Below, piece after piece: positions 17,358-30,411 of a stretch of DNA of 36,425 nt. A program made the translations under genes and the position numbers. The DNA is from Desulfovibrio sp. GTDB lineage: Bacteria; Desulfobacterota; Desulfovibrionia; Desulfovibrionales; Desulfovibrionaceae. The stretch spans positions 1-36,425 of the forward strand of contig JAFQNG010000011.1 of the NCBI GenBank assembly GCA_017396005.1. Reading direction: 5' to 3'. A model generated the notes under the pieces. That model was not told the DNA's origin, made no database searches, and worked only from the letters and a program-made list of their open reading frames with translations. Position 1 is the stretch's first letter; every line of letters starts with the position of its first letter.

Positions 17358-18608
17358 CTATTCTGCCTCGCGCCGGATACGCGCGCCCACGGCATTGAGC
17401 TTGTTTTCGATACGTTCATATCCCCTGTCCAGATGATAGATACGACGTACTTCTGTGACGCCCTTGGCCGCCAGGCCGGCCAGAACCAGGGATGCGCTGG
17501 CCCGCAGATCAGACGCCATGACCGGAGCGCCGATCAGTCGGCCAGTACCACGTACCATGGCTGTATGGCCGGAAACTTTGATCTGCGCACCCATGCGCAT
17601 CAGCTCCAGTACATGCATGAAGCGATTTTCAAAAATACTTTCCTCCACCACACTGGCACCTTCTGCCATGCACATGAGGGCCATGATCTGCGCCTGCATG
17701 TCAGTAGGAAAGCCCGGATGTGGCCGGGTTGTTACGTCAGTGCCTCGCAGAGGATTCCCGCATTTGGCAAGAACGCCGTCAGCTGTGACACTGATTTCCA
17801 TGCCCATGCTCTGAAGCTTAAGAATGACAGCCTCAAGATCTGTAAAAGGACAGTGCCGAAGCAGGAGCTCCCCGCCTGTAATACCAGCTGCTACAAGAAA
17901 CGTACCTGCTTCGATACGGTCAGGCATGACAGCATACTCTGCCCCGCCAAGTTCTGTGACGCCCTGTATCCGAATACAGCTGGTCCCCTGCCCTTCAATG
18001 CGTGCTCCGCATGCTGTGAGAAAATTGGCCAGATCCACCACCTCAGGCTCACGGGCCACATTTTCCAGTACGGTTTCGCCGTCCGCCAGGCTGGCTGCCA
18101 TAAGCAGATTTTCCGTACCGCCAACTGTGGGCATGTCGAAGGTAATGTGTGCTCCTTTAAGCTTGCGGCAACGGCCCATGATATAGCCTTCTTCCAGCTC
18201 GAAACGGGCGCCCATCTGTTCCAGCCCCTTCAGATGCTGATCCACGGGCCTGGCACCGATGGCGCATCCACCAGGCAGCGCCACACGGGCCTGACCGATG
18301 CGCGCCAGGAGCGGTCCCAGACAGAGTACTGAAGCCCGCATAGTGCGCACAAGGTCATAGGGAGCTTCGGGTTTGAGCTCCCCAGGCGCTACCTGAATGC
18401 GTGTGCCTTGGCGGTCGCAGCGACAGCCAAGCATCTCAAGCAGCTTGAGCGTGGTATGTATGTCTCGCAGGTCGGGCACATTATCAAGAATAGCTGCCCT
18501 GCTGGCGAGAATGGCAGCAAAGAGAATGGGCAGAGCCGCATTTTTTGAGCCACTGACGTCTATCGTGCCTGTGAGGGGCACACCGCCTTCAATGATCAGC
18601 TTGTCCAT
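17358..18608 (-). CDS. murA: UDP-N-acetylglucosamine 1-carboxyvinyltransferase
   Basis: MurA transfers enolpyruvate from PEP to UDP-GlcNAc, the first committed step of peptidoglycan synthesis. The 416-aa protein has the expected length and active-site residues: Lys22 and Asn23 in GSKNAALP, Cys115 in [11 protein letters not shown] (the fosfomycin target, so sensitivity is expected at the enzyme level) and the [10 protein letters not shown] segment with the catalytic Asp. The ATG at 18608 has TGGAGC just upstream; the frame extends 17 codons further. No clear promoter was found in the 161-bp upstream region, which also drives the divergent tRNA genes. Confidence 0.97.
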
Positions 18609-18728
18609 ATTGCTCCAGATAGGTTGGACGGGCAGTCGGTTCACACCGCAGTCTGCCATCAGTGAGAGTGATGCAGCAGCCTAGTTTTTTTTCTAAAGAA
18701 AATCCAGACTCATAAAGGAAAAATTTAC

Positions 18729-19069: not shown

Positions 19070-20116
19070 CTAGCGTTTTTGCAGCAGCCATGTTTCTATC
19101 TCTCGCTGCTCTTCAGTCCAGTGTTCCTTATATCCCATGCGCGGGCCAGTCACAGGCCCCATATCGTAGCGCTCGGCCCCTTCTTCACAGAGCCAGGAAA
19201 TTTTTTCTGCTTGCAGAAGGTTGCCAATGGAGCTTTTTTTCCAGTCTGCGCTGTAGCTGAACTGCTGGCCTCGATAGATTTTTCCGGCCATACCGCCAAA
19301 AATGAAGCCGATATCCTTTTCTTCATGGCGGGCAAGGATGATGCGTGCTTCTCCATTCCGGGCCAGGTCGCTGATCATGGCAGCATAGAATTCCCGTGCC
19401 GGGCTTTCGGCCATACCACACTGGCCCAGTCCTTTCCAGCTGGTATGCTCCACAGACAACATCCGTTCATAAAGAATAAGGGCTTCTTCTGCAGTGCCAG
19501 GGCAGTATCTTTCAAAACTGACCCCCTGTTCTCGCGCCTGACGGGCAGCTTTACGCAGTTTGGCTCGGTGGTTGGCCGAACGCCGCGACAGAAAACCGTC
19601 AAGGCCTCCGCGCAGCGAAGCGGCACACTGTGTGGAGCTGGAATGCCGGTAAAAAATAAATGGCCCGTTGAAGCGTCGCCACAGGACACGTGGCAGGGTT
19701 GTGCCGGGCCGTAGCCCGCTGATAACCATATACGGCCAGCCCTGATGTCTTGTATTTTGTCTGCTGTGCCGAAGTATTTCTATAAGGGCAGCCTCGAAGA
19801 GTTCCAGCAGTTCTGGGATATCCCTGCCCAGCAGAGGGCAGCCGAACAGCCAGCTCCCTTCCAGAGGGCAGCAGCAGGACGGGCCGGATGTGGATCGGTG
19901 TTCTGCCAGGGTGAGAAGAGCCGTGTCACTCTGCTGCAGAAAGATGGTCTGCGCCGGATTAAGCACTCGCAGGGCAGCCAGCTGCCATGCCGGACCACAG
20001 CAGAATGGGTCTGCCTGATCACTTTCCACAGCCAGATGCGTCCACTGCTTGCGCAGGGACACGAGATGGGCAGGTTCGTTCAGTCCAGGCGGTGTTGCAA
20101 GCGTTATCAGAGCCAT
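19070..20116 (-). CDS. BcsL/CelD-type GNAT acyltransferase-like protein
   Basis: The 348-aa protein resembles the Acetyltransf_6 (CelD/BcsL, FemAB-like double-GNAT) family. The N-terminal half has the typical strand-rich domain with a GPAWQLAALR segment and GSWLFGCPLLG. The C-terminal half carries a basic helix (RRSANHRAKLRKAARQA), then EEALILYERMLSVE, and a GNAT-like core with ARIILARHEEKDIGFIFGG and YSADWKKSSIGNLL. Such proteins transfer acyl or aminoacyl groups to envelope polymers or peptides; the substrate here is unknown. No good Shine-Dalgarno precedes the only usable ATG, and an in-frame stop lies just upstream. It follows the EPSPS-like gene after 93 bp and may depend on it for expression. 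Confidence 0.75.
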   Translation of the reverse strand: MALITLATPPGLNEPAHLVSLRKQWTHLAVESDQADPFCCGPAWQLAALRVLNPAQTIFLQQSDTALLTLAEHRSTSGPSCCCPLEGSWLFGCPLLGRDIPELLELFEAALIEILRHSRQNTRHQGWPYMVISGLRPGTTLPRVLWRRFNGPFIFYRHSSSTQCAASLRGGLDGFLSRRSANHRAKLRKAARQAREQGVSFERYCPGTAEEALILYERMLSVEHTSWKGLGQCGMAESPAREFYAAMISDLARNGEARIILARHEEKDIGFIFGGMAGKIYRGQQFSYSADWKKSSIGNLLQAEKISWLCEEGAERYDMGPVTGPRMGYKEHWTEEQREIETWLLQKR

Positions 20117-20170
20117 GTTTTTTGAAAAAGCTTATTAGTGTTCTGCGCTCTGCCGGGCGCACAGAGAGAA

Positions 20171-20200
20171 GGGCACCCCACACGATGTGCAGCGGTGCCC
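20171..20200 (-). terminator. Hairpin after the EPSPS-like gene
   Basis: A GGGCACC/GGTGCCC stem (20171-20177 with 20194-20200) has an inner CAC/GTG pairing. The minus-strand sequence beyond it is only pyrimidine-rich (TTCTCTCTGT), so termination would be weak. Confidence 0.4.
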
Positions 20201-20209
20201 TGCCCCATA

Positions 20210-21898
20210 TCAGTATTCTTCGTCCGACATTTCTGGGGGAACGGCGATGGCATTGGTTCTGATGCGCCGTCGTACTGGTGCAGGTGCCTGATCAGGCTGT
20301 GGACGTTTCAGCGCAGGCTCGGGCAAACTATTGTAGAGTGCCCAGAATGCCGGATAAAGACCCATCATAATACCCGGGTTGCCCAGCTTAAAGCCTGTAC
20401 TACGTGCATCACGGGCACAGGCAGCCAAGGCCAGGGCCAGAGCCCAGGCAGGGGATGGCGCATTCCAGACATTGTTTGCTGACTGCGATGCTTTATGCAA
20501 AAGGCCATTTTCATCCCGCTCAAGCCCGCATGCCAGCAAAAAGCCGTCTATTTGTCCCATATCAGCATCTGCAATCGTTTCAGATGGGATACGTGCCTCA
20601 CCGCTCCGCAAGCACACAGCCGCAGCCAGCGCAAGGCCAAACGGCAGCCATTCAGGGGCAAGAGGAGTCGGCAGTACAAAAGTATCAGCTGCCAGTGGAG
20701 AAGCGATGGCGGCGGTCACATGATCAGCACTCATGCTCATCTTGAGACCGAGAGAGCGAAGCATCGCCAGGGGCTGATCATCATTCCTGTTCTGTGACCA
20801 GCCTCCTTCAAGACGTACTTCGCCGGCAAGGAGCAGCGGCAAAGCCAGCAGTGGCGCAGCAAGAGAGGCATCCATGGGCAGGGATGGCTTTTCCGGCACA
20901 CTGACCGACCCGGGAATGACATGTACGCAAAAGTCTTTTTCTGTCACATCGGCCCTGACAGCCTGTAGAAGTGGCAGAACCCTGTCCATAATATCCTGGC
21001 GTTGCGGATGTGCAGAGAGATCAATGCGCAGTGACTTCTCATAGAAAGGAGCAGACAGCAGTATGCCTTCGGCCAGTTCTGCGGGTACATCTGCTGGAAT
21101 GCTTATGCTGCCGGGCAGAATACCTGAGCTTTCCAGGCGTACGGGCAGACCGTCACTTCTGGGCACCACATGGGTAAGCCTGGCCCCCATCTGAGGGAGA
21201 AAACGCCGCACGGCTGAGAAATCTGCAAGCTTGAGCGAACTGCCCCCCGTAAACTTCGCACGCGAAGGACCACCTAAATAATAGCCCAGCAAAAGAAAGA
21301 AGTTCCATGAGCTGTCGCCCACATGCAAAACTTTGTCTGGCCGCTCTACTGGCCGTGCAGCTCTGACGGTAACGCCCTGTGCTTCGCGTGTCAGCGCAGA
21401 ACCCATCTGGGCAAGAGCTTTGACACAGTCAACTATGGCGTCATTGAGCAGACATGGTTCAAGCCGTAGGGGCTGGCCAGACGATGCTGCAATCATGAGC
21501 CAGGCCCGACTGATGCGGCATGCCTGAGGAGCAGGGGCAGACAACAGAACAGGCCTGTGTGGCGGCGCAAGGTTGAAAGCCGTGCGCATGGCCTCGGCCG
21601 CATCAGCCTCCTGCCCTTCAGCGATGGGCGCTGCAGGGCGTGGCATGAATTCCACTTCCTGCATCAGTGAAAAAAAACGTCCCGAAAGACGGGGGTCGCT
21701 ACTGACGCGTGAGGAGGCAGCCTCCCAGGCCTGACGCAGAATTTTCTCCTCACCCGGTTCAAGATGGCCTTTACCACTGCGCATGCGTTCAAGCAGATTA
21801 TGACGGCGCAGCAGAAGGCGCAGGATGTCGCGGTCAATGTCTATGACCACCTCACGCAAAGGACGACGCGGGCGGTTGTCGCTTTTGTGTTCGCTCAT
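20210..21898 (-). CDS. Chorismate-mutase-like domain fused to a degenerate EPSP-synthase-like domain
   Basis: The 562-aa protein starts with a helical AroQ-like chorismate mutase region (about residues 12-85; LREVVIDIDRDILRLL, then GKGH). The rest (about 105-530) follows the EPSP synthase (AroA) fold in order. By-eye alignment with E. coli AroA shows almost every substrate-binding residue replaced. The SKS motif becomes QAC with only the Arg27 equivalent kept; NAGT becomes DSSW; the Arg124 position becomes Ser; the SSQ motif becomes PAE; the KETDR segment becomes IADAD; the Lys411 region has no Lys. The tail (about 530-562) is Pro/Arg-rich. The ATG at 21898 is chosen because GAGG sits 7 nt upstream; an ATG 6 bp earlier is too close. 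EPSPS activity is doubtful, and a regulatory or partner role is possible. Confidence 0.72.
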   Translation of the reverse strand: MSEHKSDNRPRRPLREVVIDIDRDILRLLLRRHNLLERMRSGKGHLEPGEEKILRQAWEAASSRVSSDPRLSGRFFSLMQEVEFMPRPAAPIAEGQEADAAEAMRTAFNLAPPHRPVLLSAPAPQACRISRAWLMIAASSGQPLRLEPCLLNDAIVDCVKALAQMGSALTREAQGVTVRAARPVERPDKVLHVGDSSWNFFLLLGYYLGGPSRAKFTGGSSLKLADFSAVRRFLPQMGARLTHVVPRSDGLPVRLESSGILPGSISIPADVPAELAEGILLSAPFYEKSLRIDLSAHPQRQDIMDRVLPLLQAVRADVTEKDFCVHVIPGSVSVPEKPSLPMDASLAAPLLALPLLLAGEVRLEGGWSQNRNDDQPLAMLRSLGLKMSMSADHVTAAIASPLAADTFVLPTPLAPEWLPFGLALAAAVCLRSGEARIPSETIADADMGQIDGFLLACGLERDENGLLHKASQSANNVWNAPSPAWALALALAACARDARSTGFKLGNPGIMMGLYPAFWALYNSLPEPALKRPQPDQAPAPVRRRIRTNAIAVPPEMSDEEY

Positions 21899-22091
21899 GC
21901 TCATTCCTCAAAAAAAGTGTGTAAGGCAGATATCTCGAAACAGCCCAGGGCGCAAGCCAAAGACAGTGGCTCAACTGCTCTCTCGCACATTAAAGTAGTG
22001 AAAAGGAAGAAATATTTTTATTAAAAGCAATATAACATATTGATTTTATTTATTTTTTATAGAATTTTCAAAAAAGCTTGACGGCTTTTTT

Positions 22092-22120
22092 TTATAAAGG
22101 GGCTTGACGCGGGGGATAAT
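22092..22120 (+). promoter_or_regulatory. Candidate apsBA-qmo promoter
   Basis: TTATAA (22092-22097, 4 of 6), a 17-bp spacer and GATAAT (22115-22120, 5 of 6) would start transcription near 22127, giving a leader of about 92 nt. An alternative is -35 TTGACG at 22104 with a poor -10 at 22127. Confidence 0.45.
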
Positions 22121-22123
22121 AGC

Positions 22124-22133
22124 TTGTTAACAA
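22124..22133. promoter_or_regulatory. Palindrome TTGTTAACAA at predicted start site
   Basis: A perfect 10-bp palindrome overlaps the predicted apsB transcription start. Its halves look like half-sites of Rex-type redox repressors, which normally have a 4-bp spacer that is missing here, so assignment to Rex is speculative. Confidence 0.3.
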
Positions 22134-22164
22134 AAACACAAGCCACCCCCCTGTGTTCTTTTGT
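22130..22164 (+). other. Hairpin in the apsB leader RNA
   Basis: ACAAAA and ACACA on the left (22130-22140) pair with TGTGT and TTTTGT on the right (22152-22164), with a 2-nt bulge and a C-rich loop. At the 5' end of the leader it could stabilise a highly expressed mRNA. Confidence 0.4.
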
Positions 22165-22218
22165 TGTACCCATTTGGAGGGCTGGCAAAATTTTAACTTT
22201 TTAAGTTGGAGGATACGT

Positions 22219-22707
22219 ATGCCGACGTATGTCGATCCGTCCAAATGCGACGGCTGCAAGGGTGGCGAAAAGACGGCCTGCATGTACATTTGCCCCAACG
22301 ACCTGATGATCCTCGACCCCGAGGAAATGAGGGCCTATAACCAGGAACCCGACGCTTGCTGGGAATGCTATTCCTGCGTGAAAATCTGCCCGCAGGGCGC
22401 CATCACGGCTCGCCCCTATGCAGACTTCGCGCCCATGGGCGGCACCTGTATCCCCATGCGTTCGGCCGACTCCATCATGTGGACCGTCAAGTTCCGCAAC
22501 GGCAATGTGAAACGCTTCAAGTTCCCCATTCGCACCACGCCTGAAGGTTCCATCAAGCCCTACGAAGGCAAGCCCGAAGGCGCCAACCTGGACGATGAAC
22601 TGCTGTTCACCGAACAGGCCCTGGCCGCTCCCAAGGAAGTCCTGGGCAAGAAGTTCGACGTGACCGAAGCCGACAAGTTTGCCAGCTTCATGGAACTCGG
22701 GCGTTAA
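22219..22707 (+). CDS. apsB: Adenylylsulfate (APS) reductase beta subunit
   Basis: ApsB (AprB) is the electron-transfer subunit of dissimilatory APS reductase, passing electrons through two 4Fe-4S clusters to the FAD of ApsA in the cytoplasm. The 162-aa product has cluster cysteines at 10, 13, 21 and 25 and at 47, 50, 53 and 57, followed by the C-terminal extension (about 75-162) that wraps around the alpha subunit in known structures. The ATG at 22219 has GGAGGA 5 nt upstream; the open frame reaches a GTG at 22153, but that part lies in the leader. It is the first gene of apsBA-qmoABCD, 37 bp before apsA, with strongly biased codon use typical of abundant proteins. Also named aprB. Confidence 0.97.
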   Translation: MPTYVDPSKCDGCKGGEKTACMYICPNDLMILDPEEMRAYNQEPDACWECYSCVKICPQGAITARPYADFAPMGGTCIPMRSADSIMWTVKFRNGNVKRFKFPIRTTPEGSIKPYEGKPEGANLDDELLFTEQALAAPKEVLGKKFDVTEADKFASFMELGR

Positions 22708-22744
22708 GCCGCGTCAACCGCTAGTGCGATAAGGAGAAACCATT

Positions 22745-24733
22745 ATGCCGATGATTCCCGTGAAGGAAGTGAACAAGGGCGTAGCCATCAGCGAACCCGA
22801 AGTGAAAGAACATGCGGTTGACCTGCTCATCGTGGGCGGCGGCATGGGCTCTTGCGGCGCGGCCTATGAAGCGGTGCGCTGGGGTGACAAACAGGGCCTG
22901 AAAATCCTGCTCTGCGACAAGGCTGCTCTGGAACGTTCCGGTGCCGTTGCTCAGGGTCTTTCCGCCATCAACACCTATCTTGGTGAAAACATTCCTGATG
23001 ACTATGTGCGCATGGTCCGTACCGACCTCATGGGTCTGGTGCGCGAAGACCTGATCTTCGACGTGGGCCGCCACGTTGACGACAGCGTGCATCTGTTTGA
23101 AGAATGGGGCCTGCCCTGCTGGATCAAGGGTGACGACGGCCACAACATGAACGGCGCTGACGCCAAGGCCGCTGGCAAGAGCCTGCGCAATGGCGATGCC
23201 CCCGTGCGTTCCGGCCGCTGGCAGATCATGATCAACGGTGAATCCTACAAGTGCATCGTGGCCGAAGCTGCCAAGAATGCCCTGGGTGAAGACCGCATCA
23301 TGGAACGCATCTTCATCGTGAAGCTGCTCCTTGACAAGAATACCCCCAACCGCATCGCCGGTGCCGTGGGCTTCAACCTGCGCGCCAACGAAGTACACAT
23401 CTTCAAAGCCAACGCCATTCTGGTTGCCTGCGGCGGCGCGGTGAACGTGTACCGTCCCCGCTCCACCGGTGAAGGCATGGGCCGCGCCTGGTATCCCGTA
23501 TGGAACGCCGGTTCCACCTATACCATGTGTGCCCAGGTCGGCGCTGAAATGACCATGATGGAAAACCGCTTCGTCCCCGCCCGCTTCAAGGACGGTTACG
23601 GCCCGGTGGGCGCCTGGTTCCTGCTCTTCAAGGCCAAGGCCACCAACTGCAAGGGCGAAGACTATTGCGCCACCAACAAGGCCATGCTCAAGCCGTACGA
23701 AGATCGTGGTTATGCCAAGGGCCACATCATTCCCACCTGCTTGCGCAACCATATGATGCTTCGCGAAATGCGCGAAGGCCGCGGCCCCATCTACATGGAC
23801 ACCAAGACCGCCCTGCTGACCACCTTCGCCACCCTGAACGAAGAACAGCAGAAAGACCTTGAGTCCGAAGCTTGGGAAGACTTCCTCGACATGTGCGTTG
23901 GTCAGGCCAACCTCTGGGCTGCCACCAACACCGCTCCCGAAGAACGCGGCTCCGAAATCATGCCCACCGAACCCTATCTGCTGGGCTCCCACTCCGGCTG
24001 CTGCGGCATCTGGGTGTCCGGTCCCGACGAAGCCTGGGTTCCCGAAGATTACAAGGTCAAAGCTTCCAACGGCAAGGTCTACAACCGCATGACCACCGTT
24101 GAAGGCCTCTTCACCTGCGCTGACGGCGTGGGCGCTTCCGGCCACAAGTTCTCCTCCGGTTCCCATGCTGAAGGCCGTATCGCCGGCAAGCAGATGGTGC
24201 GCTGGTGCGTGGACCACAAGGACTTCGCTCCTGAGTTCAAGGAAACCGCCGACGAACTGAAGCAGCTGCTGTATCGTCCTTACTACAACTTCCTGGCTGG
24301 CAAGGACGCCTCCACTGACCCCGTGGTGAACCCCAACTACATCACGCCCAAGAACTTCATGATGCGTCTCGTGAAGTGCACCGACGAATACGGCGGCGGC
24401 GTGGGTACCTACTACACCACCTCCAAGGCCCTGCTCGACACCGGTTTCCACCTGCTGGGCATGATGGAAGAAGACTCCCTGAAGCTGGCTGCCCGTGACC
24501 TGCACGAACTGCTGCGCTGCTGGGAAAACTACCATCGTCTGTGGACGGTGCGTCTGCACATGCAGCACATCGCCTTCCGTGAAGAATCCCGCTATCCCGG
24601 CTTCTACTATCGTGCAGACTTCATGGGTCTGGACGACAGCAAGTGGAAGTGCTTCGTGAACTCCAAGTACGATCCCGCCACCGGCGAGACCAAGGTCTTC
24701 AAGAAGCCCTACCACCAGATCATCCCCGACTAG
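22745..24733 (+). CDS. apsA: Adenylylsulfate (APS) reductase alpha subunit
   Basis: ApsA (AprA) is the catalytic FAD subunit that reduces APS to sulfite and AMP, the second step of dissimilatory sulfate reduction. The 662-aa protein has the expected family size, an N-terminal FAD-binding LLIVGGGMGSCGAA motif (about 27-42), a GRHVDDSVHLFEEWGLP segment and a fumarate-reductase-like fold with the C-terminal helical domain. GGAG lies about 8 nt before the ATG. Codon use is extremely biased (AAG, GAA, CTG, C-ending codons), so the reverse strand also shows a long but false open frame. A GC-rich hairpin follows the stop codon, before qmoA. Also named aprA. Confidence 0.98.
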   Translation: MPMIPVKEVNKGVAISEPEVKEHAVDLLIVGGGMGSCGAAYEAVRWGDKQGLKILLCDKAALERSGAVAQGLSAINTYLGENIPDDYVRMVRTDLMGLVREDLIFDVGRHVDDSVHLFEEWGLPCWIKGDDGHNMNGADAKAAGKSLRNGDAPVRSGRWQIMINGESYKCIVAEAAKNALGEDRIMERIFIVKLLLDKNTPNRIAGAVGFNLRANEVHIFKANAILVACGGAVNVYRPRSTGEGMGRAWYPVWNAGSTYTMCAQVGAEMTMMENRFVPARFKDGYGPVGAWFLLFKAKATNCKGEDYCATNKAMLKPYEDRGYAKGHIIPTCLRNHMMLREMREGRGPIYMDTKTALLTTFATLNEEQQKDLESEAWEDFLDMCVGQANLWAATNTAPEERGSEIMPTEPYLLGSHSGCCGIWVSGPDEAWVPEDYKVKASNGKVYNRMTTVEGLFTCADGVGASGHKFSSGSHAEGRIAGKQMVRWCVDHKDFAPEFKETADELKQLLYRPYYNFLAGKDASTDPVVNPNYITPKNFMMRLVKCTDEYGGGVGTYYTTSKALLDTGFHLLGMMEEDSLKLAARDLHELLRCWENYHRLWTVRLHMQHIAFREESRYPGFYYRADFMGLDDSKWKCFVNSKYDPATGETKVFKKPYHQIIPD

Positions 24734-24752
24734 TCGGCGGAATTGACAAAAG

Positions 24753-24776
24753 GGGGGCGGCCTCAGGGCCGCCCCC
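24753..24776 (+). other. Strong GC hairpin between apsA and qmoA
   Basis: A 10-bp stem of only G and C (24753-24762 with 24767-24776) has a 4-nt loop. No T-run follows. It probably protects the apsBA mRNA 3' end or reduces read-through into qmo, rather than acting as a full terminator. Confidence 0.6.
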
Positions 24777-24917
24777 ACAGTCGATGGCCATACGGCGTCA
24801 GCGCCGTGCAGGCCGGTCGTCAGTTCAGGGCGGGGCTTGTGTTCCGCCCTTTATTTTCCTGCGGCGAAGGGAGCAGACTCCATAGCCGCAATGCATCAAC
24901 GCAGGAGGATATCAAGG

Positions 24918-26153
24918 ATGTCCAATGCCATTCTCGTCGTGGGCGGCGGCTTTGCAGGCCTTACTGCCGCCATTGAAGCGGCGGAACTGGGCCACGATGT
25001 CTATATCGTCGAAAAAACGCCCTGGCTCGGCGGGCGCGTAGCCCAGCTCAATAAATATTTCCCTAAACTCTGTCCCCCCTCCTGCGGCTTGGAAATACAG
25101 TTCCAGCGCATCAGGAAGAACCCGCGCATCAAATGCCTGACCATGGCAGAGGTGACGGGCCTTTCGGGCAGCAAGGGCGACTACACTGTCACGGTGCGCC
25201 TGGCGCCACGCGGCACAGCAGCCCACAATGTGGATTTCAGCCTCCTGGCCTCCTCTCTTGAAGGTGAGACCCCAAGCGAGTTCGAGCTGGGGCTGAGCGG
25301 GCGCAAGGCGCTCTACAAGTCCATGCCCTTTGCCTATCCGGCCCGCTATGTGCTTGACCCCTCCACCCTGTCCAAGTCCGATGCGGCTCGCGTGGCCGGT
25401 AACAAGTTCCTCAGCCTTGATGAGAAGGAACGCGAAATCGAGCTCAAGGTAGGGGCCATTGTTGTGGCTACCGGCTGGAAGCCCTATGACGTTACCCGTC
25501 TTGAAAATCTCGGTGCCGGCAGTGTGAAGAACTGTGTCTCCAACATGCAGCTCGAACGCCTTGCCTCACCCTTCGGCCCCACAGGCGGACGCATTGTGCG
25601 CCCCAGCGACAGGCGCGCGCCCACCAACGTGGCCTTCGTGCAGTGCGCAGGCTCGCGTGACCAGAACCATCTCAACTACTGCTCCTATATCTGCTGTATG
25701 GCTTCGCTCAAGCAGAGTCTCTATATTGCCGAGCAGTACCCCGAGACACATGTCACCATCTACTACATCGACCTGCGTGCCCCTGGCCGCTATGTCAATG
25801 TGCTTGACAAGGTAAAGGCCCTGCCCAACGTCAGCCTGGTCAAGGGCAAGGTTGCCAACGCCGTACAGGCCGAAGGCGATCGCGTCCGTCTCACGGTTGA
25901 AGATGCCGTGCGCGGCGAAAAGCTCACTCTGGATTATGACCTCGTTGTGCTGGCCACGGGCATGCAGCCGTCGCTGGCTGGCGACAAGCTGCCCCTGCCC
26001 TTGCCGCTGGATGAGGAAGGCTTCATCGCTGGTGGCGAAGAAGCCGGCATCTTTGCTGCCGGTTGCGCATACATGCCTCTGGACGTGACGCGCACGGCGC
26101 AGTCCGGCACAGCTGCCGCCCTGAAGGCGGTGCAAACGGTGAAAGGGAGGTAG
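24918..26153 (+). CDS. qmoA: QmoA, flavoprotein subunit of quinone-interacting membrane-bound oxidoreductase
   Basis: QmoA is a soluble HdrA-related flavoprotein of the Qmo complex, which links menaquinol oxidation to APS reductase. The 411-aa protein has an N-terminal FAD motif (VGGGFAGLTAA, about 7-17), a CPPSCG segment shortly after residue 50, a second GAIVVATGW segment, the HdrA-type FVQCAGSRD motif with a later CSYICC, and a C-terminal GIFAAGCAYMP segment with the final FAD contact. The ATG at 24918 follows GGAGG 11 nt upstream; the frame starts earlier at 24837, but that part is the intergenic leader. It is 184 bp after apsA and 5 bp before qmoB. Confidence 0.95.
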   Translation: MSNAILVVGGGFAGLTAAIEAAELGHDVYIVEKTPWLGGRVAQLNKYFPKLCPPSCGLEIQFQRIRKNPRIKCLTMAEVTGLSGSKGDYTVTVRLAPRGTAAHNVDFSLLASSLEGETPSEFELGLSGRKALYKSMPFAYPARYVLDPSTLSKSDAARVAGNKFLSLDEKEREIELKVGAIVVATGWKPYDVTRLENLGAGSVKNCVSNMQLERLASPFGPTGGRIVRPSDRRAPTNVAFVQCAGSRDQNHLNYCSYICCMASLKQSLYIAEQYPETHVTIYYIDLRAPGRYVNVLDKVKALPNVSLVKGKVANAVQAEGDRVRLTVEDAVRGEKLTLDYDLVVLATGMQPSLAGDKLPLPLPLDEEGFIAGGEEAGIFAAGCAYMPLDVTRTAQSGTAAALKAVQTVKGR

Positions 26154-26158
26154 GCGGC

Positions 26159-28426
26159 ATGGCCGGTAAAATTGGCGTCTATTTTGACCTGGAAAACATC
26201 GGCGGCGGCCTTGATGTGGAAGGCCTTGCTGCCCAGGTCCGCGACAAGTGGGCCGATTTGACCCCTGTTGTCAAGGTCGTGCCGCTTCTGGCCGGTGCGA
26301 TCGCTGAAATCAGTGAAGACATTACAGCTCAGGGCCTTGACGGCGTACTGCTGTGCGGTGCTTCCCCCCGCGTGGACGGCGAGCTGTACCGCTTCCCGGT
26401 TCAGGTGGAATATGTAAACCTGCGCGAACTCTGCGTACAGGCCTACAAGAACCCTGACAACAGCCCTGTGGACAAGAACAATGCCCCTGCCCTGCTTTCG
26501 CTCATGGCCAGGGACTATGTGAACATGGGCGTGGTCAAGCTGCAGAAGAGTGCTGTACCGGACTCTGCGGCCATTACCACCGTGCCCCGCGTGCTGGTTA
26601 TCGGCGGCGGCTGGACTGGCCTCACGGCGGCTCTGGAAGCTGCTGCTACTGGCTACGAAGTGGTACTGGTGGAAAAATCCGCCCAGCTTGGCGGCGCTGC
26701 CAGCAACATTCCCATGGGCTCCCCCCTCAAGTCGCCCTGGACCGACAAGGAAGCTACCTGTGTGTCGGGCAAGATCGCGGCAGTGACGGAAAATGACAAG
26801 ATCACCGTCTACTGCAATGCGGTCATGCAGAAACTGGAAGGCCAGCCTGGTGAATTCACGGCCAGTATTGCCACCGAAAAGGGCACGGTAACGGTGCAGG
26901 TGGGTGCTGCTGTGCTGGCCACCGGCTGGAAGCCCCTGGAAGACAAATACCTTGCCTCCATGGGTCTGGGTGAAGACCCCAGGGTGGTTCATGCGGCCGA
27001 ATTCGGCAAGATGCTGGCTGCAGATCAGGTGACGGCCCGCCGTATCGCCTTTGTGCTTGATACCACCATGGCCGAAGAGGCTGTGCGCAAGGCTGCCGAA
27101 GACGCTGCCGAGGCTGCCACAGGCGAAGAGGCTGCTGCACCTGCTGCCGAAGAAGGCGAAACCAAGTCCTTTGTCAAGGAAGACCTGGAAAGCATCAAGC
27201 ACCTTCGCTACTCCAATGTGGTCAACAGCGTGGGCATGCTCCGCCTGGCCAATACTGTCTGCGAAAAGACCGATGATGCCACTCAGGCCTTTATTCTCTA
27301 CAAGGATATGACAGTGCCGGGCATCCTGGAGCGCTTCTACAAGCAAATGCAGGACCGCCTTGGAGTCATGATGACCAAGGCTGACGTCACCGACATACGC
27401 GATGCCGGCAGCCATATGGTGGTCGAATGCAAAAATACCCTGCTCGGCATGGACTTTGACCTTGATGTGGATATGGTTGTCCTGCCTACCGGCCTTGTGC
27501 CCACCACTGCCAAGGAGGTCACTGTCGGCTTTGACTATCGTCAGGGTCCCGACTTCCCCGACCTGGCCCTCTTTGACGGCTTTGCAGATTCCAACTATAT
27601 CTGCTTCCCCTATGAAACCCGTCGTACCGGTGTCTATGCGGCCGGCTGTGTACGTCAGCCCCTGACCATGGATGCCTGTGAGGAAGACGCGCGCGGTGCC
27701 GTGCTCAAGGCCATACAGTGCATTGAAGCCGCCGGCCACGGTGTTGCCGTGCATCCGCGTTCCGGCGATCTGTCCTACCCGGTGTTCAATTTCGTGCGCT
27801 GCACACAGTGCAAGCGCTGCACTGAAGAGTGCCCCTTCGGCGCTCTGGACGACGATGAAAAGGGTACGCCCAAGCCCAACCCGGCGCGTTGCCGCCGCTG
27901 CGGTACCTGCTTCGGCGCCTGCCCCGAACGCGTTATCTCCTTTGCCAACTACAATATCGACCAGATCGGCTCCATGATCCGCGAAGTGCAGGTCCCCAAG
28001 GACTTCAAGTCCGAAGGACCGCGCATCCTCATCCTTGCCTGCGAAAACGACGCCTATCCGGCTCTGGATATGGCCGGTGCCCGCGGCAAGTCGTGGAGCC
28101 CGTACTGCCGCGTCATTCCTGTGCGCTGCCTGGGTTCGGTCAACGCCATCTGGGTGTCGGACGCCATGAGCAAGGGCTTTGACGGCGTCATGCTTCTGGG
28201 CTGCAAATACGGTGACGACTATCAGTGCCACTTTGTGAAGGGCTCTGAAATCTGCAACCGCCGCAAGGAAAATATCGCTGAAACGCTGAACCGTCTCGGC
28301 GTACAGCCCGAACGTGTAGAGCAGATGGAAGTGGCCATTGACGAATATGACAAGGTGCCCGACCTCATTGATGGTTTTGTGGCCCGCATCACGGCCATGG
28401 GCCCCAACCCGTTCAAGGGCATGTAG
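26159..28426 (+). CDS. qmoB: QmoB, HdrA/MvhD-like flavin and iron-sulfur subunit
   Basis: QmoB is the second HdrA-like subunit of Qmo. The 755-aa chain has an N-terminal region (about 1-135) without the full HdrA N-terminal cysteine cluster, an FAD motif VIGGGWTGLTAA (about 142-155), an ATGW segment, a GVYAAGC segment near 490, two 4Fe-4S motifs (CTQCKRCTEECP near 547 and CRRCGTCFGACP near 580) and a C-terminal MvhD-like domain (about 620-755) with several cysteines. MvhD normally passes electrons between hydrogenase and Hdr, so this domain could dock a partner. An Ala/Glu-rich insertion lies at about 305-335. GGAGG precedes the ATG by 9 nt, and the gap to qmoC is 13 bp. Confidence 0.95.
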   Translation: MAGKIGVYFDLENIGGGLDVEGLAAQVRDKWADLTPVVKVVPLLAGAIAEISEDITAQGLDGVLLCGASPRVDGELYRFPVQVEYVNLRELCVQAYKNPDNSPVDKNNAPALLSLMARDYVNMGVVKLQKSAVPDSAAITTVPRVLVIGGGWTGLTAALEAAATGYEVVLVEKSAQLGGAASNIPMGSPLKSPWTDKEATCVSGKIAAVTENDKITVYCNAVMQKLEGQPGEFTASIATEKGTVTVQVGAAVLATGWKPLEDKYLASMGLGEDPRVVHAAEFGKMLAADQVTARRIAFVLDTTMAEEAVRKAAEDAAEAATGEEAAAPAAEEGETKSFVKEDLESIKHLRYSNVVNSVGMLRLANTVCEKTDDATQAFILYKDMTVPGILERFYKQMQDRLGVMMTKADVTDIRDAGSHMVVECKNTLLGMDFDLDVDMVVLPTGLVPTTAKEVTVGFDYRQGPDFPDLALFDGFADSNYICFPYETRRTGVYAAGCVRQPLTMDACEEDARGAVLKAIQCIEAAGHGVAVHPRSGDLSYPVFNFVRCTQCKRCTEECPFGALDDDEKGTPKPNPARCRRCGTCFGACPERVISFANYNIDQIGSMIREVQVPKDFKSEGPRILILACENDAYPALDMAGARGKSWSPYCRVIPVRCLGSVNAIWVSDAMSKGFDGVMLLGCKYGDDYQCHFVKGSEICNRRKENIAETLNRLGVQPERVEQMEVAIDEYDKVPDLIDGFVARITAMGPNPFKGM

Positions 28427-28439
28427 GAGGATGGCAGCA

Positions 28440-29621
28440 ATGGCACAATGCACTCTCAAACCGGATACGGACTTCACCAGAGCGCTCAAGGAAGCCGGGG
28501 GCGAATCCCTCAAGAAGTGCTTCCAGTGCGCCACCTGCTCTGTGGCCTGCCCGATGGCTCCGGCCAATGCGCCCTATCCGCGCAAGGAAATGGTCTGGGC
28601 CTCTTGGGGTCTCAAGGACAAGCTGCAGGGCGATGTGGACCTCTGGCTCTGTCACAACTGCGGCAACTGCTCTGATCTCTGTCCGCGTGGCGCCAGACCC
28701 GCTGACATGATGGCAGCTGCGCGTAACGTCATCTACCGGGATCTGACCGAGCCCTCCATCATTGGCAAATGGATGAGCAAGCCCTCCGGCCTGCCCTTCC
28801 TTTTCGCCATCCCGGCCGTACTCTGGCTCATCGTCTGGTGGATCCGCGCCGGCTTCAACGGCGGTGAGTGGTTCCCCCGGGCTGCTGACGGGCGTATCGT
28901 CTTTGGGCAGATCTTCTACGGCGACTACACCATTGACCCCATCTTCATGCTGACCTTCTTCGGGGCATGCTTCATCCTTGCACGGGGCGTCATGAAACTC
29001 TGGGGCATGTTCAAGCCACAGGGCAGCCTTGCCGTCATCGGCAAAACCAAGAGCTGGATCTGGCATCTCTGGGATGTCATCTGGGATGAAGCCATCTCGC
29101 ATCGCAAGTTTGACGACTGCGACGACGGCCCTGCTGTCACCAAGAGCGCGCCCAATCGCAAGAACGGGCACATGCTGCTGGTATACAGTTTCTGCATTCT
29201 TGCCTTTGTCACCGCCGTGGTGGCGCTTGGGCACTGGGGTGGCAAGGTCATTCCCATGATCAAGATCGAAACCCCCATGCCCCTGACCTTCCCGGTCAAG
29301 ATCCTGGCCAATATCGGTGCGCTCATGCTGCTGGCCGGTCTGGCCATACTGACATGGCGGCGCATGAGCCTCAAGCCTGCGGATCAGGTCTCCAGCTATT
29401 ATGACTGGTATCTCCTGGGCATCATCTGGCTTGTGGCTGTGACCGGCGTACTGGCCCAGTGCTTCCGCCTGGCTGATGTCATTGCGCCGGCATTTGTGGT
29501 TTACTATCTGCACCTGGTCTTTGTCTGGATGCTTTTTGCCTATCTGCCCTGGTCCAAGCTGGGTCACTTCGTCTACAGGACGGCTGCCCTGGTCTATGTG
29601 CGGATGTATGGCCGCAGCTAG
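28440..29621 (+). CDS. qmoC: QmoC, HdrC/HdrE-like membrane subunit with heme b
   Basis: QmoC anchors Qmo in the inner membrane and is thought to oxidise menaquinol. The 393-aa protein fuses an HdrC-like domain with two 4Fe-4S motifs (CFQCATCSVACP near 27-38 and CHNCGNCSDLCP near 70-82) to a NarI/HdrE-like cytochrome b domain of about six membrane helices (about 115-385). Histidines suited to heme ligation occur in the membrane part, for example in GHWGG and YLHLVF. The ATG at 28440 is chosen because GGAGG lies 9 nt upstream; the ATG at 28431 directly abuts that site. It is the last recognised Qmo structural gene. Confidence 0.95.
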   Translation: MAQCTLKPDTDFTRALKEAGGESLKKCFQCATCSVACPMAPANAPYPRKEMVWASWGLKDKLQGDVDLWLCHNCGNCSDLCPRGARPADMMAAARNVIYRDLTEPSIIGKWMSKPSGLPFLFAIPAVLWLIVWWIRAGFNGGEWFPRAADGRIVFGQIFYGDYTIDPIFMLTFFGACFILARGVMKLWGMFKPQGSLAVIGKTKSWIWHLWDVIWDEAISHRKFDDCDDGPAVTKSAPNRKNGHMLLVYSFCILAFVTAVVALGHWGGKVIPMIKIETPMPLTFPVKILANIGALMLLAGLAILTWRRMSLKPADQVSSYYDWYLLGIIWLVAVTGVLAQCFRLADVIAPAFVVYYLHLVFVWMLFAYLPWSKLGHFVYRTAALVYVRMYGRS

Positions 29622-29688: not shown

Positions 29689-30411
29689 ATGTCTGATAGC
29701 AATCGCAAAGTATTTCCCGTTGAGTCCGTGCTGGCCCTCGTGGTGGGCAAGGAAGGCGTGGACGTCAAGGATCTGGCCGGATATATAGTCGGGCGCTCCA
29801 TTGCCTGTGACTGCTGCGCCAAGGCTGCCGGGCCCTTCGCAGCCGCCTGGCTGGCCCGCTGGTACCCCAAGTTTGCCACTCTGGAATGGAGTGAAGGTCA
29901 GGACTGGGATACCTTCGTCAAACGCGGCGCCAAAACCCTGGGCGACAATATCTCCCTGACGCCCATGGACGGCCGCACCAAGGCGCAGGCCGCCCAGGTG
30001 CTGGATTACCTGGCTGACAGCTACAAGAGCCTGGCTACGCAGACCGCTGCCTGCATGGAACTGGAAAAGCGCGTGGCAGAACTTGCCCCCAGCGAAGCCC
30101 ATGCCGAAGCCCTGCAGAAGAAGGTGGACGAGCTCGAAGCCAAGATCAAGGGCCTCAATGCCGATATGGGCGGGCTTCGCCGCCAGGTGGCTGAATATCA
30201 GGGCAAGGTGGCCATCAGCCACGATGACCTGATGATGACCATCAAGGACGCCATCAAGGACGGCCTCAAGGGTATGGTTGTTGGTGGTGCTGCCGGTGCT
30301 GCAGGTGCTGCCGCAGGTGCTGAAGAAGCTGCTGCGGTTGAGGAAAACAGCGTGCCGGACGATTTCGGCTTCGGTTCATCGGGCGCCAATTCCGACGGTT
30401 TTGGCTTCTAG
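29689..30411 (+). CDS. qmoD: QmoD-like conserved protein with repeated GFGF tail
   Basis: The 240-aa protein occupies the place of the conserved gene called qmoD downstream of qmoABC in Desulfovibrio; its function is not established. It is soluble by appearance and has no signal peptide. Visible parts are an N-terminal region with a Cys-rich CDCC motif (Cys40, Cys42, Cys43), a conserved aromatic segment (AAWLARWYP), a coiled coil (about 120-175), an amphipathic segment (KDAIKDGLKGMVV), an Ala/Gly-rich low-complexity linker (about 198-215) and a C-terminal acidic tail with DDFGFG and DGFGF repeats. A strong GGAGGAGG ribosome site precedes the ATG. It lies 67 bp after qmoC and before a strong terminator. 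It may be an assembly or docking factor. Confidence 0.85.
   Translation: MSDSNRKVFPVESVLALVVGKEGVDVKDLAGYIVGRSIACDCCAKAAGPFAAAWLARWYPKFATLEWSEGQDWDTFVKRGAKTLGDNISLTPMDGRTKAQAAQVLDYLADSYKSLATQTAACMELEKRVAELAPSEAHAEALQKKVDELEAKIKGLNADMGGLRRQVAEYQGKVAISHDDLMMTIKDAIKDGLKGMVVGGAAGAAGAAAGAEEAAAVEENSVPDDFGFGSSGANSDGFGF

Follow-up and report, generated by a model that had tools for sequence, protein, structure and literature searches.

A fused AroQ-type and EPSP-synthase-type protein, widespread in the Desulfovibrionales, is probably a double pseudoenzyme

Introduction

The closest described systems to the protein reported here are EPSP synthase (AroA) and the AroQ-type chorismate mutase. For EPSP synthase, we take the active-site and binding residues to be K22, R27, R124, S170, Q171, D313, K340, E341, R344, R386 and K411, and for AroQ we take the catalytic set to be R11, R28, K39, R51, E52, S84 and Q88, of which R28 and E52 bind the substrate. 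The helical domain of AroQ dimerises. Catalytically dead relatives that are conserved alongside an active enzyme are also on record, and the prozyme of AdoMet decarboxylase (PMC5201418) and a paralogue of deoxyhypusine synthase (PMC3663545) are reported as such cases.

Here, we describe a gene in a stretch of 36,425 nucleotides from a Desulfovibrio sp. genome (contig JAFQNG010000011.1, hereafter the window), the product of which (P0001) joins an AroQ-like and an EPSP-synthase-like domain in a single chain. We consider it probable that P0001 represents an order-wide double pseudoenzyme, AroQ-type and EPSPS-type, which is dead for both ancestral reactions and has taken on a non-catalytic role in binding or as a scaffold.

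Results

The gene and its locus

The features of the window that are referred to in the text are the following:

20210-21898, minus strand: coding sequence of the putative double pseudoenzyme (P0001, 562 aa), with the start codon at 21898-21896 and the stop codon at 20212-20210
21644-21859, minus strand: AroQ-like (chorismate-mutase-like) domain, approximately residues 14-85, from CM_2 matches and profile comparison
20318-21568, minus strand: EPSP-synthase-like domain, approximately residues 111-527, from profile comparison, with the catalytic residues replaced
20213-20314, minus strand: C-terminal tail (residues 529-562), carrying the motif RRR(I/V) at 543-546
21899-22218, no strand: intergenic region between the divergent genes
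22219-29621, plus strand: divergent aprB-aprA-qmoABC, which do not belong to P0001 and adjoin its gene in many relatives
19070-20116, minus strand: gene for a GNAT-type protein, the next gene on the P0001 strand
17358-18659: genuine murA, beyond the gene for the GNAT-type protein

The reading frame of P0001 is unbroken over 562 codons, with the stop codon included in 20210-21898, while frame 1 of the plus strand contains many stops across the same interval. The aprB gene starts at 22219, and the genes aprB-aprA-qmoA-qmoB-qmoC are transcribed in this order away from the P0001 gene. A scan of positions 20000-22400 recovered three sigma-70-like sites, as compared to 1.4 expected (sd 1.2). Downstream of qmoC, a frame of 240 codons (29689-30411, plus strand), for which no match was obtained in Pfam (E <= 1e-5) or NCBIfam (E <= 0.001), may presumably be a fourth qmo gene.

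Homology to AroA and AroQ and loss of catalytic residues

P0001 alone matches the Pfam model EPSP_synthase (PF00275) over residues 131-402 with an E-value of 2.2e-11, and it fails the equivalog test for AroA (TIGR01356), where it reaches 64.8 of the 287.25 bits required. For comparisons at the family level we aligned P0001 with 68 relatives drawn from 78 scanned loci (alignment A2, 69 sequences), leaving out four short or ambiguous sequences and six near-duplicates, as judged by eye. Among the AroA structures, the A2 profile matched 3nvs_A best (E 1.1e-24, profile positions 111-515), a profile-profile comparison with four AroA sequences extended over nearly the entire length of AroA (E 9.3e-23), and the NCBIfam aroA model recognised 67 of the 69 members (E <= 0.001). 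Matches of the A2 profile to MurA (UDP-GlcNAc 1-carboxyvinyltransferase), which belongs to the same Pfam family, were weaker, with a best E-value of 8.3e-8, and the P0001 family is thus far nearer to AroA than to MurA. Judged at the profile level, the homology to EPSP synthase covers the whole domain.

The catalytic residues of EPSP synthase were tallied over the 69 sequences in E. coli numbering. K22, S23, R27, Q171, Y200, K340 and K411 are absent from all sequences, whereas G96, R124, S197, H385 and R386 are each found in a single one. S170 is present in 3/69, N94 in 5/69, S169 and E341 in 8/69 each, D313 in 12/69 (with Glu instead in 27 more) and R344 in 18/69, while the equivalent of N336 falls in an alignment gap. 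The binding and catalytic set is thus missing from the family, each site being retained in 0 to 18 of the 69 members. Retained throughout (69/69) are P19, P150, R152 and P414 in the numbering of E. coli AroA.

For the N-terminal domain, the CM_2 model (PF01817) matched 38 of the 69 single sequences at the loose threshold of E <= 1, with a best E-value of 1.3e-11, and P0001 itself was unmatched even at this threshold. None of the NCBIfam chorismate mutase models recognised more than 6/69 members at E <= 0.001. A profile-profile comparison with three mutase domains gave an E-value of 6e-7 and a probability of 92%, so that homology to the AroQ helical domain is apparent between profiles and weak for single sequences. 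The equivalents of R28 (R32 in P0001) and E52 (E51) are present in 69/69 each, and W58 (69/69) and R55 (64/69) are also well conserved in this domain. R11 is found in 41/69 and S84 in 5/69, whereas R51 is absent from all members and replaced by Glu or Asp in 46. The K39 equivalent lies in a gap and Q88 beyond the aligned part, and the full catalytic set of AroQ was not recovered in the family. Since R32 and E51 are fully kept, binding of a small ligand by the helical domain is still conceivable.

An earlier note on this DNA had read the gene as a fusion of chorismate mutase and EPSP synthase that has lost the active site of the latter. The fusion is borne out by the profile comparisons of both domains (E 9.3e-23 and E 6e-7), and the loss by the family alignment, in which nearly all catalytic residues of EPSP synthase are replaced across the 69 sequences. 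Its suggestion that the Arg27 equivalent is the lone survivor did not hold, as R27 is kept in 0/69; the profile pairs R131 of P0001 with N26 and A132 with R27, and here a slip by one residue is possible. For the mutase domain, the proposed retention of Glu52 and loss of Arg51 agree with the tally and R28 is kept in addition, while the Lys39 equivalent, for which persistence had been proposed, falls in a gap. From the residue losses we infer that both catalytic activities would be gone.

An N-terminal extension rich in Arg, Asp and Glu, with a length of 63-86 residues given the chosen start, was observed in L070, L083, L087, L093 and L099. Its length varies among 27 loci, from long extensions to short ones or none at all, and RNA binding through its Arg-rich sequence is no more than a lead.

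Distribution, selection and inheritance

The 78 named loci were obtained with one pattern scan of genome contigs, which is also what covers other phyla. They belong to the Desulfovibrionaceae, Desulfohalobiaceae or Desulfonatronaceae, with 3/78 assigned only to Deltaproteobacteria or Proteobacteria. In a draw of 149 genomes from the family of the window, 129 matched at E <= 1e-3, of which 126 were counted as positive, as the very weak matches in G005, G030 and G080 were taken as cross-matches to other PF00275 proteins; among the matches listed, second matches were fragments of the fusion gene or weakly AroA-like. In a draw of 247 genomes from the order, 231 matched at E <= 1e-3, 223 at E <= 1e-19 (eight weak matches being excluded) and 222 at E <= 1e-45. 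In a draw of 297 genomes from the phylum, 92 matched at E <= 1e-15, of which nine belong to the family of the window. The other 83 lie outside the order, and all of them begin at profile position 101 or later, that is, they do not include the mutase-like domain. These results indicate that the P0001 family spans the whole order, which is the Desulfovibrionales according to the named loci.

Estimates of dN/dS ranged from 0.06 to 0.27 over 14 pairs, as obtained by simple counting with an experimental module; dS exceeded 1 in five of the 14 pairs. Purifying selection on an intact frame is what is expected of a maintained pseudoenzyme. There are also signs of vertical inheritance, in that distances within the P0001 family correlate with AprA distances across 44 loci (Spearman 0.76, with 0/500 permutations as high). 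A decaying pseudogene, which was considered as a candidate, is ruled out by the unbroken frame, the order-wide presence and the low dN/dS values. The view of the earlier note that the gene is maintained rather than decaying is thus supported by its presence in 223/247 genomes, by the purifying selection seen in all 14 pairs and by distances that track those of AprA.

Location of the conserved positions

We compared the conservation of the 19 positions equivalent to the EPSP synthase active site with that of the domain as a whole. Mean conservation is 0.457 over residues 111-527 and 0.364 over the 19 positions, and among 20,000 sets of 19 randomly drawn positions, 1.1% score as low. The cleft-equivalent positions fall below the domain average most strongly in the domain-I half; the second half of the alignment of this domain is gapped, and low scores there are partly alignment noise. 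Well-kept exceptions among the 19 are P272, F201, P483 and D195. Invariant in 69/69 are R32, E51, W58, P124, R240, P246, G250, P252, R254, E256, W485, P516 and W519, and the 40 top-conserved positions group at residues 240-260 and 478-526, among the helical-domain residues D22, R32, E51, R55, W58 and F76, and at the C-terminal RRR motif, in which R544 and R545 are retained in 67/69 each and R543 in 63/69. In the aligned sequences, conservation has thus shifted from the catalytic-cleft positions to other parts of the protein.

These patterns bear on the possibility that P0001 is a new enzyme, in which the EPSPS fold, the mutase fold or both have a rebuilt active site and catalyse another reaction. 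Purifying selection would be expected of such an enzyme, as would the invariant charged residues R32, E51, R240, R254 and E256, and close to the old cleft loops N199 (63/69), K223 (46/69, with Arg in 18 more) and D226 (58/69) are well kept. However, the cleft equivalents score below the domain average in conservation, above all in the domain-I half, and the PEP-binding residues of EPSP synthase are replaced. We therefore regard a new enzyme as unlikely, and the more specific proposal in the earlier note of a new enolpyruvyl-type enzyme appears to be disfavoured by the same two observations.

Relation to aromatic amino-acid synthesis

A second, intact aroA was sought in the genome of the window and found on another contig (C42), with a score of 349.1 bits, which is above the TIGR01356 cut-off; P0001 as the sole aroA of this genome is thereby ruled out. 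In total, 116 of the 126 fusion-positive genomes have an aroA match at E <= 1e-30. No such match was obtained in 13 of the 149 genomes drawn from the family, 10 of which carry the fusion protein, and among these ten, G011, G047, G067 and G101 have a completeness of 90% or more. When ten chosen genomes were searched for aroC, 8 had the gene, including G067 and G101. In G011 (98% complete) and G047 (99%), neither aroA nor aroC was detected by profile searches of these draft or near-complete genomes, both of which seem to have lost chorismate synthesis. Both retain the fusion protein, each with 16 of the 17 checked residues.

The earlier note had suggested a regulator or scaffold of aromatic synthesis, that is, a protein that binds enzymes of the pathway or senses chorismate or prephenate via a remodelled mutase pocket. 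Such a role would fit the pathway origin of both folds, the universal R28 and E52 equivalents and the high frequency of aroA among the carriers, as well as the genomic proximity of aroA to the fusion gene in G126 and to aprBA in the four loci described below. As a general role it is disfavoured, because G011 and G047 keep the protein without detectable aroA and aroC; furthermore, the two examined genera with an aro operon beside aprBA have no fusion gene, and in the genome of the window the fusion gene and the aro operon are located on different contigs. We consider this explanation to be quite improbable, and favour a binding or scaffold function outside this pathway.

G126, a genome of the window's genus with no aprA match, carries aroA (approximately 248170-248811) on contig C2, at a distance of about 12 kb from the fusion gene (260400-262082). 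In L163, L164, L165 and L166, which represent two genera without the fusion gene, aro operon genes (ADH synthase, AroB', PheA, AroA and TyrA, each locus showing at least four of the five) are divergent to aprBA. These loci were chosen since earlier searches had placed aroA close to aprA, and one further genome of the same genus, G080, does not show the arrangement. More generally, aroA was located within 10 kb of aprA in nine genomes. That the fusion arose from adjacent pheA and aroA in an aro operon once located beside apr is suggested by these four loci and by the domain order, and was set aside as it lacks further support. An aro gene was found near the fusion gene in 0/78 named loci, and in 4/8 loci without the fusion gene a small gene described below is located beside aconitase, so that placement of the aro operon next to apr seems to have been an independent event.

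Gene neighbourhood and sulfate respiration

The fusion gene adjoins aprB in 48 of the 78 named loci, and in each case the two genes are on opposite strands; early contig ends occur among the remaining 30. We examined 20 additional loci in other genomes, mostly of other genera, and the order fusion gene, (small gene), aconitase, PpiD-like gene was observed on one strand in 12 (L171-L180, L186, L187), and sat adjoins the fusion gene on its other side in 8; three reference proteins were identified for aconitase, PpiD-like and sat, and the remaining copies by BLAST only.

We also compared the occurrence of the fusion gene with that of aprA, as counted by hand in 149 genomes. Both genes were found in 84 genomes, the fusion gene only in 42, aprA only in 22 and neither in 1, with aprA scored over the cut-off; one of the 42 carriers without aprA, G014, has an aprA that is split by a contig end. 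Taken together, these data speak to whether P0001 could be an accessory factor of APS reductase, of Qmo or of the sulfate-activation locus generally. The divergent position relative to aprB and the adjacency to sat are what such a factor would show, and yet one third of the carriers (42/126) have no aprA over the cut-off, 22 of the 23 genomes without the fusion gene do have it, and G126, given as 100% complete, keeps the fusion gene without any aprA match. An accessory role of this kind is therefore highly improbable in our view. Sulfate reduction as the explanation was likewise rejected: the neighbourhood is strong, but the co-occurrence is not exclusive.

A small gene overlapping the fusion gene

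The fusion gene is followed by a small gene of about 85 codons, which was matched 44 times in 106 loci, one of these at a locus without the fusion. In 29 of the 39 loci that could be measured, the two genes share 8-83 bases at the 3' end of the fusion gene, read in different frames, with an overlap of 38-83 bases in 25 of the 29, the choice of start being crude. An example is L065:9571-9825 (plus strand), which together with the other rows of alignment A5 gives the consensus AEDPAxGIFFAxEIH. The product looks coiled-coil-like by eye, and its matches to Pfam are weak (best 0.0028). The small gene was identified in 115 of the 149 genomes and in 0/9 of the searched genomes of the window's genus. 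Conservation of the C-terminal tail could elsewhere be attributed in part to this overlap; the tail is also retained in the window's genus. Because the small gene persists in genomes without the fusion gene, the pair is not obligate.

Annotation and published data

Searches of open-licence PMC papers found no description of the fusion protein. Passages of PMC7311316, PMC10102598, PMC3125180, PMC5701242 and PMC4162548 contain nothing on it, and those of the last two list canonical aro operon genes. Pooled G20 mutants of Dde_1106, named 5-enolpyruvylshikimate-3-phosphate synthase, gave fitness scores of -0.75 to -2.41 in seven conditions (PMC5193443), dde_1109 and dde_1110 are aprB and aprA (PMC10133479), and Dde_1111-1114 are the qmo genes (PMC7376266). 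From the aprB and aprA locus tags, Dde_1106 sits at about the slot expected for the fusion gene and is likely the orthologue of P0001. It could instead be a canonical aroA, since two genera have a true aro operon beside apr.

Discussion

The order-wide distribution, the purifying selection and the loss of both catalytic sets point to a fusion protein that is kept for a function other than the two ancestral reactions. As for how a binding or scaffold protein of this kind might work, the helical domain would give a dimer, as in AroQ, and a partner, either protein or RNA, would be contacted through the segments 240-260 and 478-526 of the EPSPS domain together with the basic RRR(I/V) tail. Its main job would lie outside aromatic amino-acid synthesis, and would not be tied only to sulfate respiration. 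A more specific picture, which we put forward tentatively, is that of a near-core protein of the order, in which two fused dead shikimate folds serve a non-catalytic function unrelated to their ancestry, which is often translationally coupled with a small coiled-coil-like protein and which is kept without chorismate synthesis.

Two consequences follow. The name EPSP synthase on a likely member such as Dde_1106 can mislead metabolic models of sulfate reducers, and an order-wide double pseudoenzyme, often located beside central respiration genes, would offer a clean case for studying how new functions are acquired by metabolic enzymes that have lost their activity.

In comparison with known systems, the P0001 family resembles AroA (PF00275, TIGR01356) in its near-full-domain homology and in the four residues that are universally retained, but differs in that nearly all substrate-binding and catalytic residues are replaced and in the addition of a mutase-like N-terminal domain and a basic C-terminal tail. 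It resembles the AroQ-type chorismate mutases in its CM_2 and profile matches and in the equivalents of R28 and E52, but R51 is missing, S84 is mostly lost, K39 falls in a gap and R11 is present in little more than half of the members. With the prozyme of AdoMet decarboxylase and the dead deoxyhypusine synthase paralogue, it shares the conservation of a dead relative alongside the active enzyme; unlike them, P0001 joins two dead folds in one chain, and its family persists in two genomes in which neither aroA nor aroC is detectable.
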